From Cristatella mucedo (lineage: Eukaryota > Bryozoa > Phylactolaemata > Cristatellidae), in the NCBI GenBank assembly GCA_009760855.2, contig WPIO01000002.1, positions 8,042,001 through 8,106,000 on the forward strand: a stretch of 64,000 bases of DNA. Direction: 5' to 3'. Every line of letters begins with the position of its first letter. Position 1 is the first letter of the stretch. This document shows, piece after piece, positions 9,568 through 33,736 of the stretch. Under the pieces are notes generated by a model. The model was given only the letters and a program-made list of their open reading frames with translations, was not told the origin of the DNA and searched no databases. Both the position numbers and the translations under genes were made by a program.

Positions 9568-9678
9568 ATCGGTGTCAATGCTGCCAATGTCTCCAAACGT
9601 TCGCAGCTCCTTTTCTTCAGGGATAGCAATCAGCTTCTGGCGCTGAAAATCGTCGACAAGAGCAAGTGTCAGCCAGAG
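9568..9678 (+). CDS. Pseudokinase exon a: glycine-loop strand and ALK lysine
   Basis: The frame reads [11 protein letters not shown] then [11 protein letters not shown] and ends CQPE before a GTGAGT donor at 9679. ALK matches the VAIK lysine strand of protein kinases. Only one glycine of the GxGxxG loop remains. The start is set by an in-frame TGA 6 nt upstream and by the AG at 9566-9567, which has a poor pyrimidine tract, so the 5' boundary is the weakest part. Confidence 0.7.
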
Positions 9679-33400: not shown

Positions 33401-33736
33401 TCTCAGGAAGATTCTCACGAGGCTCCGACTGCTATCAAGCCGGTGCACAGGGCCGGTAGCGCACACTCAGGTATTAGTCAGCTGATCAACCATGAAGGCA
33501 AGTCTCGTGCTATTACTGTCGCTACTAGCGAAGATATCCCATTTGGAAGCGCTGCTAAGAACGTCGATAGTGGCAAAACCGAAACCAACACGTGGCGTCA
33601 CGGTTCACATGATGCAGATGTCGAGACAACTAATGTGAAGGCTACAGATGAGCTGGTTGACACGGCGACACAGAAGCAGCCAATATCACCTGGCTCCGCC
33701 GGGAACGGTGAGGGCAGCGATAGCGAATATTATTAG
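9568..33736 (+). CDS. CaMK-family pseudokinase (CaMKI/CAMKV-like), 5' end not found
   Basis: Seven exons: 9568-9678, 9851-9973, 15944-16090, 18765-19045, 31782-31947, 32818-32931 and about 33168/33222-33736. The first six join with consistent phases. In order they give a degraded glycine loop and the ALK lysine, an alpha-C glutamate (AKEVGLL) with the KHANIIGL strand, the catalytic-loop region, the pseudo-DFG and alpha-F region (VDLRGAG), the C-lobe end (AISHPWL), a CaM-binding-like basic segment and a 170-residue low-complexity tail. From family knowledge, HRDxKxxN reads [11 protein letters not shown] reads GFR and APE reads SPN, so phosphotransfer is unlikely. The VAIK lysine and alpha-F aspartate remain. 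The order and the AISHxW motif followed by a basic helix fit CaMKI and especially vertebrate CAMKV, a vesicle-associated calmodulin-binding pseudokinase. Orthology is inference. Assembled length is about 485 aa (CAMKV is about 500). The N-terminus upstream of the glycine loop was not found, and the last junction has a phase problem. Confidence 0.8.
9851..9973 (+). CDS. Pseudokinase exon b: alpha-C and strands 4-5
   Basis: After an acceptor TCTAG at 9850 the frame reads [17 protein letters not shown], then NIIGLVEEF and WYLVMDLDE, and ends at a GTAAGC donor. It matches the alpha-C glutamate, the KHPNI turn and the hinge of CaMK kinases. Phase 0 at both ends; the intron before it is 172 bp. Confidence 0.85.
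11400..11955 (+). mobile_element. Family B LINE fragment with internal deletion and GA expansion
   Basis: Resembles the copy at 45930-46700: CAGCTAGGCTTGTCTG, GCCACATCGCACCA, GAAGCCTGGAACTCACTCC, CACATTTAAAA, then the GCTGACACTGTG and CATGTCACCTCTAA spacer and the tail ending in ATTATTATTATT. Most of the middle RT thumb region is deleted. A (GA)n run of about 99 bp sits inside the tail stem-loop. Confidence 0.7.
11806..11904 (+). repeat. (GA)n microsatellite inside a LINE tail
   Basis: About 99 bp of GA with a few interruptions. It lies between CCTAGT and AGATTGAGTTCTC of a family B stem-loop. Confidence 0.9.
13595..13820 (-). mobile_element. Family B LINE 3' end
   Basis: Reverse complement carries AAAGCGCCTAGAAAGAGATT, AAGTTCTCTGAGGGCGCTTT, then an ATT-rich tail. 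Upstream on that strand are the CTAACC and TGTCACCACTAACC spacers found in other copies. This copy has the best preserved tail stem-loop. Confidence 0.75.
15220..15885 (-). mobile_element. Family B LINE fragment next to an exon
   Basis: Reverse complement of the C-terminal RT region and spacers (CATCCCATCTCGACTTCTA, GCTGCAAGGCTCTTC, GCGTCGCAGTTGCCACAC, GAGTTCTCTTTCTAGG tail). Its right end is only about 58 bp before the pseudokinase exon at 15944. Frames are broken. Confidence 0.7.
15944..16090 (+). CDS. Pseudokinase exon c: alpha-D/E and degenerate catalytic loop
   Basis: Opens after TTCTTGCAG and closes before GTAGGA, phase 0 at both ends. It encodes [10 protein letters not shown], the alpha-E helix [15 protein letters not shown] and the catalytic loop [10 protein letters not shown]. 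Against HRDLKPENLL, the Arg, Asp, Lys and Asn of the active site have all changed. The open frame runs past the donor to 16378, but that stretch shows no kinase similarity and is intron. Confidence 0.9.
16091..18764. other. Pseudokinase intron
   Basis: A 2.7-kb intron. The frame 17316-17669 (117 codons) and its overlaps in other frames match nothing I know. No repeat was recognised. Confidence 0.6.
18765..19045 (+). CDS. Pseudokinase exon d: pseudo-DFG, activation segment, alpha-F
   Basis: Opens after GGTGCAG and ends in phase 2 before GTAAAT. It starts with a polar insert (Ser/Thr/Ala, about 15 residues longer than in CaMKI), then [12 protein letters not shown] at the DFG position (D to G, G to R). 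A divergent activation segment follows, then SPNAL in place of APE, and [21 protein letters not shown], which keeps the alpha-F aspartate and the LLTG pattern. Confidence 0.88.
19195..20220 (+). mobile_element. Family B LINE fragment, longest plus-strand copy
   Basis: Starts in the RT palm ([15 protein letters not shown]) and continues with [47 protein letters not shown] and [20 protein letters not shown]. The 3' spacer, stem-loop and (ATT)n follow. There is a stop near 19275, and two compensating frameshifts lie between about 19585 and 19700. The element class is CR1/L2-like by these motifs. It sits in the pseudokinase intron just after exon d. Confidence 0.85.
20817..20912 (+). repeat. 8-bp tandem repeat with 48-bp higher-order period
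   Basis: Twelve perfect copies of (A/T)GATAGTC. The first base runs A,A,T,T,A,T twice, so a 48-bp block is duplicated exactly. Confidence 0.95.
21148..21202. repeat. (TA)n microsatellite
   Basis: About 55 bp of TA with one TGTA interruption. A second, shorter (TA)n lies at about 21322-21357. Confidence 0.9.
21225..21312 (+). mobile_element. Family B LINE tail
   Basis: CAACAAATGTAAAGTGCCTA, GAAAGAGATTGAGTTCTCC, a GAGGG remnant, TTTTATCAAGTGTATT and a CTT/ATT-rich end. It directly follows a (TA)n run. Confidence 0.7.
22692..23498 (-). pseudogene. Stop-interrupted coding-like frame, unknown
   Basis: Three open stretches on the minus strand (23498-23217, 23210-23010, 22904-22692) lie in the same frame and are split by only a few stops over 807 nt. 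Segments such as [32 protein letters not shown] and [18 protein letters not shown] look protein-like. I recognise no family. It could be a decayed transposon protein or chance in a GC-richer patch. Inside the 12.7-kb intron. Confidence 0.3.
24284..24450. repeat. Compound (CA)n / (GC) / (TA)n microsatellite
   Basis: Imperfect CA repeats, a CGCGCGTGTGCGCGCG alternating core, perfect CA, then TA. Alternating purine-pyrimidine over about 165 bp. Confidence 0.9.
24455..24600 (+). mobile_element. Family B LINE 3' spacer and partial tail
   Basis: Contains CACCTCTAACCATGTTAGG, CATTGAGCATGTCACCGC, TCAATCGTGTTTTCTTTGCA and GTAAAGTGCCTAGAAAG, the family B 3' spacer in order. The stem-loop is cut after AGAAAGTG. 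Confidence 0.65.
24695..25660 (-). mobile_element. Family B LINE fragment, minus strand
   Basis: On the minus strand it encodes, in broken frames, FLKLNDD-like, [12 protein letters not shown] and [12 protein letters not shown] segments, then [38 protein letters not shown] and [18 protein letters not shown]. The spacer, stem-loop remnant and ATT-rich tail follow near 24695. Nearly the same extent as the 19195-20220 copy. Confidence 0.82.
26336..26372. repeat. Perfect 16-bp hairpin, 5-nt loop
   Basis: AAAAAGCCTGGAGCAG and CTGCTCCAGGCTTTTT flank CAAAA. It looks like a bacterial terminator but lies in an intron of an animal gene, so no terminator role is assigned. Confidence 0.9.
27485..28560 (-). 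mobile_element. Family A non-LTR retrotransposon fragment (left arm of inverted repeat)
   Basis: On the minus strand it reads from the RT motif C region (CADDTQLY near 28540-28517) through [16 protein letters not shown] and [14 protein letters not shown] to the C-terminal [10 protein letters not shown], then a 3' tail of ACATT-type repeats. This order is typical of CR1/L2-like LINEs. There is no endonuclease region and the frame breaks between 28182 and 28121, so it is a dead 5'-truncated copy. It lies in the 12.7-kb pseudokinase intron. Confidence 0.88.
28569..29400 (+). mobile_element. Family A retrotransposon fragment (right arm of inverted repeat)
   Basis: Starts at [11 protein letters not shown] and repeats the left copy on the opposite strand through [17 protein letters not shown] to FLRND and the TACATTACATT end. 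Protein similarity to the left copy is near complete over the first 100 residues of the 28792-29268 frame, with substitutions and a small deletion later. Confidence 0.88.
29401..29524 (+). mobile_element. SINE-like repeat, 5'-truncated
   Basis: GGTCTGACCGAGGTCCAACG, GGCTCAAGCCCTGTGGCATA and AGAGCGCCTGAATAGAGAG, with the partner AAGGGCGCTATACAAATG and a TATA-rich tail. Same repeat as at 60856-61018, without the box A half. It abuts the end of the family A LINE at 29400. Confidence 0.6.
30416..30455. repeat. (TA)n microsatellite
   Basis: Forty bp of perfect TA in the pseudokinase intron. Confidence 0.95.
31636..31700 (+). mobile_element. SINE-like tRNA head fragment
   Basis: AGCTGGTTTGGTCTAGCGGT TAAGG matches the head of the 60856-61018 repeat. 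What follows does not continue the repeat. It lies 82 bp before pseudokinase exon e. Confidence 0.4.
31782..31947 (+). CDS. Pseudokinase exon e: C-lobe end
   Basis: The acceptor TTTTAG supplies G to complete the AG from exon d, giving an Arg codon; it ends in phase 0 before GTAATA. It encodes [19 protein letters not shown], then [14 protein letters not shown], matching the subdomain XI region of CaMK kinases (W-x-x-[IV]S..AKDLI, A.SHPWL). The intron before it, 19046-31781, is 12.7 kb and carries several LINE fragments. Confidence 0.9.
32818..32931 (+). CDS. Pseudokinase exon f: calmodulin-binding-like segment
   Basis: Opens after GATTTCAG, phase 0, 38 codons, with a strong donor ATG|GTACGT. 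It encodes [17 protein letters not shown] then [11 protein letters not shown]. The pattern of an amphipathic helix with basic clusters after AQ..K.NF matches the autoinhibitory and CaM-binding segment of CaMKI and CAMKV. Calmodulin binding is inferred. Confidence 0.85.
33168..33736 (+). CDS. Pseudokinase last exon: Ser/Glu/Ala-rich tail
   Basis: A long open frame with no repeat similarity ends in DSEYY and TAG at 33734-33736. It is rich in Ser, Ala, Glu, Asp and Thr, like the disordered tail of CAMKV. Two acceptors give the same frame: TTTGCAG before 33168 and CCGTAG before 33222. Both need a preceding exon that ends one base into a codon, but the best donor of exon f leaves phase 0. A weaker donor (AC|GTTGAT, exon f ending 32935) would fit. 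With the best donor and the 33168 acceptor the protein would stop after 17 further codons. Confidence 0.6.

Follow-up and report, generated by a model that had tools for sequence, protein, structure and literature searches.

A probable doublecortin-like kinase gene with a predicted pseudokinase domain in the bryozoan Cristatella mucedo

The window considered here is the 64,000-nucleotide stretch of the Cristatella mucedo genome at C222:8042001-8106000 (C222 stands for contig WPIO01000002.1; the assembly comprises 688 contigs and 572 Mb), which was analyzed together with the 100 kb upstream of it. It carries the 3' half of a gene that is quite probably a doublecortin-like kinase (DCLK) gene, of the DCLK1/2-like type, with a pseudokinase domain. 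In the full model, the gene has 12 exons on the forward (+) strand and encodes about 1,130 residues without an internal stop, arranged on one strand as two DCX domains, a long linker rich in Gly, Ala and Ser, a domain of the CAMK fold, and a tail. The kinase domain is predicted to be a pseudokinase: substitutions have removed its metal-binding and phosphotransfer residues, and the Lys-Glu pair is kept. Positions without a contig label are those of the window.

The gene body extends about 17.6 kb upstream of the window start. Joined by script, the first DCX exon and the ten exons that follow it encode 1,083 residues with a terminal stop only, and an N-terminal exon on the same strand, read by eye from its Met at C222:8024415 to 8024555 (EEKKARK), contributes a further 47. 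The two DCX domains are encoded at C222:8027951-8028155, 8028261-8028721 and 8033737-8033833, on the strand of the kinase exons, as is a linker exon of 1.1 kb at C222:8039533-8040670, whose 3' end reads VSGRYQILRTIAKEGPVTLKECMS. All splice sites of the gene are GT-AG, and the exon phases are compatible. The assembly has an N gap of 5 kb still further upstream, beyond the limits of the gene.

Within the window, seven exons are found at 9621-33736 (+). The first (9621-9678; phase 2 in, phase 0 out; donor gtgagt) encodes the last part of beta 2 followed by beta 3, in which the Lys (9646-9648) is retained, and alone it is weak in a profile search (E 2.9). The next four exons, all on the + strand, carry the remainder of the kinase domain: alpha C with the retained Glu (9872-9874), beta 4 and beta 5 at 9851-9973 (hmmsearch E 2.9e-8); alpha D, alpha E and the catalytic loop HGNVNLDS at 15944-16090 (E 5.8e-9); LKLGGFR, an expanded activation segment, SPN and the alpha F Asp (18978-18980) at 18765-19045 (E 0.0029); and a shortened alpha G region, alpha H, alpha I and HPWL at 31782-31947 (E 5.6e-6). 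A tail exon at 32818-32931 (+) aligns to the DCLK1 tail, as judged by a shuffle test and a phmmer alignment. The last exon (33275-33736, +; phase 0, acceptor ctgctgctttacag) encodes a low-complexity tail ending in GSDSEYY, followed by the terminal TAG stop at 33734-33736; its start was set at the best of several candidate acceptors, and the tail it encodes is probably disordered. A possible polyadenylation signal, AATAAA, lies about 430 bp past the stop (34168-34173, +). The first-pass annotation of this DNA, made from the window's letters, had described six exons in phase and without an internal stop; the phase and the open frame hold, with GT-AG joins and a lone stop, and the count becomes seven, with 32818-32931 as the tail exon.

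The beginning of the kinase domain had to be revised. The earlier reading started the gene at 9568 and took 9568-9620 (+) for a glycine loop with one glycine, IGVNAAN. The acceptor at 9568 is poor (gag/a in ctgtgaactgag, with no pyrimidine tract), whereas a classic ttttcttcag precedes 9621; the true exon start is consequently placed at 9621, and 9568-9620 is non-coding intron in this model. The real loop lies in the upstream linker exon, as the segment RTIAKEGPVTLKEC. This exon ends at C222:8040670, which is 1,331 bp before the window start, with the donor AG/GTACGC in phase 2, matching the phase of the exon at 9621. When 5,439 stop-free stretches on the + strand, from the last DCX exon to 9620, were scored, the glycine-loop segment came first (mean 37, with the runner-up at 11). 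With the corrected start, the joined protein scores 91 bits against Pfam Pkinase (E 1.1e-25), compared with 84.5 bits for the start at 9568 and a cut-off of 31.7 bits. A score so far above the cut-off, together with in-phase exons, means that the kinase domain is not a chance match.

The linker exon also bears on whether the DCX domains and the kinase domain belong to a single gene. A kinase-less doublecortin gene upstream and a separate pseudokinase gene downstream could be suspected from the distance of 5.7 kb between the last DCX exon and the linker exon. However, the glycine-loop strand and the linker share one exon, whose phase is compatible with the DCX2 exon, and a paralog on contig C66 has the same DCX-DCX-kinase order and two kinase intron positions in common (compared by eye). 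Two genes are therefore quite improbable.

The DCX part matches human doublecortin with 229.9 bits over both domains and Pfam DCX with E 7.3e-33 in 2 stretches; all 15 of its matches at E <= 0.001 are doublecortin or DCLK1. For the kinase part, PDB was searched with the query starting at 9568, and the best 60 of 598 distinct sequences at E <= 0.001 were inspected. DCLK1 provides the top six matches (100.7 to 92.1 bits), followed by CaMKII (72.5), CaMK1 (68.8) and CASK (63.5). The tail exon points in the same direction. Out of 5000 shuffles, none reached the observed score against DCLK1 or DCLK2, compared with 23 for CAMKV, 221 for CAMK1, 691 for DCLK3, 1109 for CAMK2A, 1569 for CAMK1D and 3809 for the C66 paralog. 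In a kinase tree of 13 rows, in which the human reference rows were mostly entered by hand, the window gene, the C66 paralog and DCLK1/2/3 are split from the other eight rows with support of 100/100, and CAMKV joins CAMK1 and CAMK1D (98/97), away from the window gene.

These results bear on the identity that the first-pass annotation had proposed, namely an ortholog of CAMKV or a parallel pseudokinase. CAMKV is a calmodulin-binding CAMK-group pseudokinase with a low-complexity tail; it is not known to have DCX domains, and it keeps the DF of DFG and HRN. An origin of the window gene from CAMKV or CaMKI would agree with its CAMK-group fold and with the weak likeness of its tail exon to the CAMKV tail (the 23 shuffles). 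When confined to kinase data, approximately unbiased (AU) tests give borderline p values against it: 0.045 for a grouping with CAMKV alone and 0.058 for a grouping with CAMK1, CAMK1D and CAMKV. It is the DCX domains that decide between DCLK and CAMKV. The same gene model holds two of them, the PDB score of DCLK1 is at least 28 bits above those of the CaMKs, and CAMKV groups with CAMK1 apart from the window gene. Taken together, architecture, PDB search, tail and trees identify a DCLK gene and make an origin from CAMKV or CaMKI hardly credible. The protein search and kinase tree that had been suggested earlier thus bear out a CAMK-type kinase, with DCLK1 as its best PDB match and the DCLKs, not CAMKV, as its neighbors in the tree.

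The second DCLK gene of the genome, found by sequence comparison at C66:2280318-2294994 (-), carries two DCX domains followed by a DCLK3-like kinase that looks active, with GDGNFA, HRDLKPEN, DFG and APE intact. Its kinase is 62.7% identical to DCLK3 and 56.0% to DCLK1, and its kinase domain shares 33% identity with that of the window gene. The two intron positions held in common lie before GYD/GGD and after DSLL/PENVM, both in phase 0. According to the parts of PMC10602587 consulted, invertebrates have two DCLK paralogs, one DCLK3 and one DCLK1/2-like, and DCLK3 mostly has one DCX domain; the main human DCLK3 isoform is described in the corresponding part of PMC12509982 as having none. That the window gene is the DCLK1/2-like member is probable from the identity of its DCX1 domain, from the tail, and from a DCX1 tree (10 rows, 95 columns, forks mostly open) in which its grouping with the C66 gene is rejected (p-AU 0.003).

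Across the genome, nine DCX matches occur at six places (C222, C66, C133, C442, C561 and C653), and those on C222 and C66 have a kinase downstream. No third DCLK was found among the 140 of 287 kinase candidates that were scored; the DNA downstream of the DCX matches on C133, C442, C561 and C653 was not part of this search. The genome's best DCLK1 match, at C665:3946475-3947047, was rejected as a third DCLK, since CAMK1D and CAMK1 outscore DCLK2 and DCLK1 there. The kinase at this place (around C665:3946487-3947122, -) begins with an N-terminal MGC, has most of its domain in one open frame, and looks like PSKH1. No second copy of the pseudokinase was detected in the genome, where the 25 matches comprise 8 of its own exons and 17 others, all at most 33% identical. 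A recently decayed copy of an active kinase, which had been named earlier among the findings that would speak against the proposal, is contradicted by the 33% identity of the C66 kinase, by the 17 other matches, and by the DCX1 test. No relatives were confirmed in viral contigs with the query starting at 9568.

The loss of catalytic residues is extensive. The motifs reported earlier are present as stated: the catalytic loop HGNVNLDS at 16061-16084 (+), with Asn in place of the HRD Asp at 16067-16069; GFR in place of DFG at 18840-18848 (+); and SPN in place of APE at 18936-18944 (+). Where an active Ser/Thr kinase has the HRD Asp, the loop Lys and Asn, the DFG Asp and a glycine loop (GDGNFA in the C66 gene), the window gene has HGN, N, S, GFR and AKEGPV. 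The comparison was extended to 24 columns that are invariant and non-hydrophobic across ten active CAMK-group kinases. Thirteen of them are retained and 11 substituted, the latter being two glycine-loop Gly, the Gly after the hinge, the HRD Asp, the loop Lys, the loop Glu and Asn, the DFG Asp and Gly, the APE Glu, and a late Arg. In the alignment, the retained residues include the beta-3 Lys, the alpha-C Glu, the His of HRD, the Phe of DFG and the alpha-F Asp. The claim that every catalytic motif had been lost is thus right for the HRD Asp, loop Lys and Asn, DFG Asp, APE Glu and glycine loop, but not for the beta-3 Lys, alpha-C Glu and alpha-F Asp. The alignment further contains an 11-residue insertion ahead of GFR, a lengthened activation segment in which GTP reads GEP, and a shorter alpha-G stretch.

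An alternative active isoform was considered and rejected, because no exon with intact motifs and no further kinase exon was found in C222:8024000-8078500. On both strands of this interval, the patterns HRD[LIVM]K, DFG and G.G.F..V have zero matches, and the two APE-like strings are both chance. A profile search of the gene body at E <= 10 returned 8 matches: 3 at chance level and 5 that correspond to known exons, one of these with E 2.9 and the other four with E <= 0.003. The same evidence applies to the idea of an atypical but active kinase whose catalytic residues have migrated, which the part of PMC10211241 consulted raises for some pseudoenzymes. The retained Lys and Glu are compatible with this idea. 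However, none of the catalytic Asp, the DFG Asp, the loop Lys, the loop Asn or the glycine loop is intact, and no alternative exon with intact patterns was found in the gene body, so that residual activity of this kind is very improbable indeed.

Within this one protein, divergence has been much faster in the kinase domain than in the DCX domains. The kinase domain is 35.6% identical to DCLK1 (a divergence of 64%) and contains no stop, whereas DCX1 and DCX2 are 62.8% and 53.3% identical to human DCX; the tip lengths are 0.043 changes per site for DCX1 and 2.93 for the kinase. Neutral simulations were started from the exons of the gene under a single mutation scheme with indels ignored. The mean number of stops was 1.9, 3.3, 6.2 and 10.0 at 90, 80, 60 and 35% identity, and 49, 16, 1 and 0 of 300 runs, respectively, remained free of stops. 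Since about 10 stops would be expected and none is present, the frame appears to have been under selection for most of the divergence. In addition, 61 of the 71 columns that are hydrophobic in all ten active references are still hydrophobic, compared with a neutral expectation of 63%, and 0 of 500 runs reached so high a value. The earlier description of a CAMK-group pseudokinase with a maintained frame is thus supported. The reading frame is probably maintained, and the domain would serve as a scaffold rather than as an enzyme.

Alternatively, the kinase part could be neutral and decaying, in a DCX gene that is losing its kinase domain and moving toward the kinase-less state of vertebrate DCX. 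The long kinase branch, the insertion before GFR, the expanded activation segment and the shortened alpha G, set against strongly conserved DCX domains, are what such decay might leave. However, it is unlikely in view of seven exons without a stop or frameshift where neutral decay would give about 10 stops, of core hydrophobicity above the neutral expectation, and of splice sites that are GT-AG throughout. Constraint may nevertheless have been lost late, during about the final 10 to 20% of the change.

A mechanism can be outlined from what is described for DCLK1. In the parts of PMC8352597 consulted, autophosphorylation in the DCLK1 tail restrains the kinase, microtubule binding is abolished when the DC domains become more heavily phosphorylated, and D511N is an established kinase-dead mutant; Asp 511 is given as the HRD Asp in the consulted part of PMC10602587. 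The Asn of HGN occupies the D511 place, so that the change in the window gene is the same as in the laboratory kinase-dead mutant. The DCX domains would bind microtubules, and since the protein would be unable to phosphorylate its own DCX domains, the off-switch of the DCLK1 type would be lost in cis. Microtubule binding may then be constitutive, or may be regulated in trans, for instance by the active-looking DCLK3-like kinase on C66. The dead kinase domain would be retained as a folded module for docking or dimerization, which AISIL, a segment of the tail, may close. This segment stands at the position of DCLK1 VSVI, described as an ATP mimic in the same part of PMC10602587, with I-S-I as the aligned residues. 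The tail of the gene model has no Lys at the place equivalent to the DCLK1 Lys that contacts the HRD and DFG Asp, which fits the loss of both Asp. It is tentatively proposed, with more doubt than confidence, that the kinase domain is a permanent structural module, its Mg-ATP-incompetent pocket filled by AISIL from its own tail, and that microtubule binding has been freed from autophosphorylation. If this is true, the gene would have gone, independently, half of the way toward the kinase-less doublecortin of vertebrates, and a tail segment called vertebrate-specific would be older than thought.

Several points weigh against the interpretation given so far. The link from DCX to kinase exons is one of order, strand and splice phase, in which all junction phases fit. 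Most of the human rows were entered by hand. Placement of the window gene within the DCLKs is weak, with support of 67/49 for a grouping with DCLK1/2, and the AU test does not reject a grouping with the C66 gene (0.10), with DCLK3 and the C66 gene (0.29), or outside all other DCLKs (0.33). Five kinase intron positions, compared by eye, differ between the window gene and the C66 gene. Catalysis could have been lost long after the frame arose, considering the 49 of 300 neutral runs that were stop-free at 90% identity; expression, folding and selection after that loss are predictions from sequence. Finally, VSVI is absent from invertebrate DCLK1/2 according to the consulted part of PMC10602587, so AISIL is possibly convergent. 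As an observation in its own right, AISIL is a VSVI-like segment in a probable invertebrate DCLK1/2-like tail, contrary to that statement.

Among known systems, DCLK1 and DCLK2 are the closest in layout, with two DCX domains, a linker, a CAMK-type kinase domain and a C-terminal tail with an ATP-mimic-like segment. The window gene differs from them in its lack of the HRD Asp, loop Lys and Asn, DFG Asp and Gly, APE Glu and glycine loop, in its longer activation segment and shortened alpha G, and in the absence of the tail Lys from the model. DCX is not known to have a kinase domain. The window protein resembles it in its DCX domains (63% and 53% identical) and in that no catalysis would be expected of it, but it keeps a dead kinase domain. 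The C66 gene has the DCX-DCX-kinase order and the two common intron positions, and it differs in its intact catalytic motifs, its other tail and the five other intron positions. CAMKV is likewise a CAMK-group pseudokinase with a low-complexity tail; however, it groups with CAMK1, whereas the window gene has DCX domains, HGN and GFR. CASK is a CAMK-group pseudokinase with GFG. PSKH2, another CAMK-group member, is named a pseudokinase in the literature excerpts consulted; CASK and PSKH2 belong to other families and have other partner domains.

No DCLK pseudokinase is the subject of the titles and abstract openings listed from the open-licence PubMed Central literature that matches DCLK or doublecortin together with pseudokinase. 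In the passages of PMC10602587 examined, "pseudokinase" refers to Tribbles, and the word is absent from PMC12509982. The main text of a pseudokinase catalog (PMC7586955) contains neither DCLK nor doublecortin, which carries little weight because CASK and CAMKV are absent from it as well. The part of PMC3117856 consulted predicts 12 inactive kinases in Schistosoma mansoni and lists one DCAMKL gene, which would be a precedent if it were one of the 12. Within the literature searched, the DCX-DCX-pseudokinase architecture is new. Its interest lies in the fact that microtubule binding of mammalian DCLK1 is tied to its own kinase activity, the physiological roles of which are called elusive in the consulted part of PMC8352597. 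A lineage that gave up catalysis while retaining the kinase fold and the DCX domains would separate scaffold from enzyme in a natural experiment, and it allows asking whether an ATP-mimic tail docks without competing ATP.

Other features were noted as well. Within the window, exons of a glucosamine-6-phosphate deaminase/isomerase gene lie at 51039-56605 (-): the exon at 51039-51545 (-) matches 3hn6 with 92 bits and 1ne7 with 91 bits, that at 51786-52172 (-) matches Pfam Glucosamine_iso weakly and below the cut-off (E 0.0027), and 56270-56605 (-), which has no Pfam match, is presumably the first exon. An ankyrin exon of a CLPB/Skd3 homolog is found at 57857-58204 (+), with 76.4 bits to "Caseinolytic peptidase B protein homolog". 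Open frames at 19279-19989 (+), 27627-28628 (-), 28696-29268 (+) and 45962-46423 (+), in a gene intron and nearby, are taken to be remnants of non-LTR reverse transcriptases; the one frame of the four that was queried (28696-29265) has no match in Pfam. A tRNA search and an Rfam search of the 64-kb window found nothing. Arrays of (GA)n/(TC)n with up to 66 copies occur at 11807-11904, 41836-41968 and 42188-42255. Elsewhere on the same contig, close to its start at C222:98998-113153, five matches to the kinase N-lobe and one to a later part lie within about 14 kb on one strand, perhaps as a tandem kinase array.

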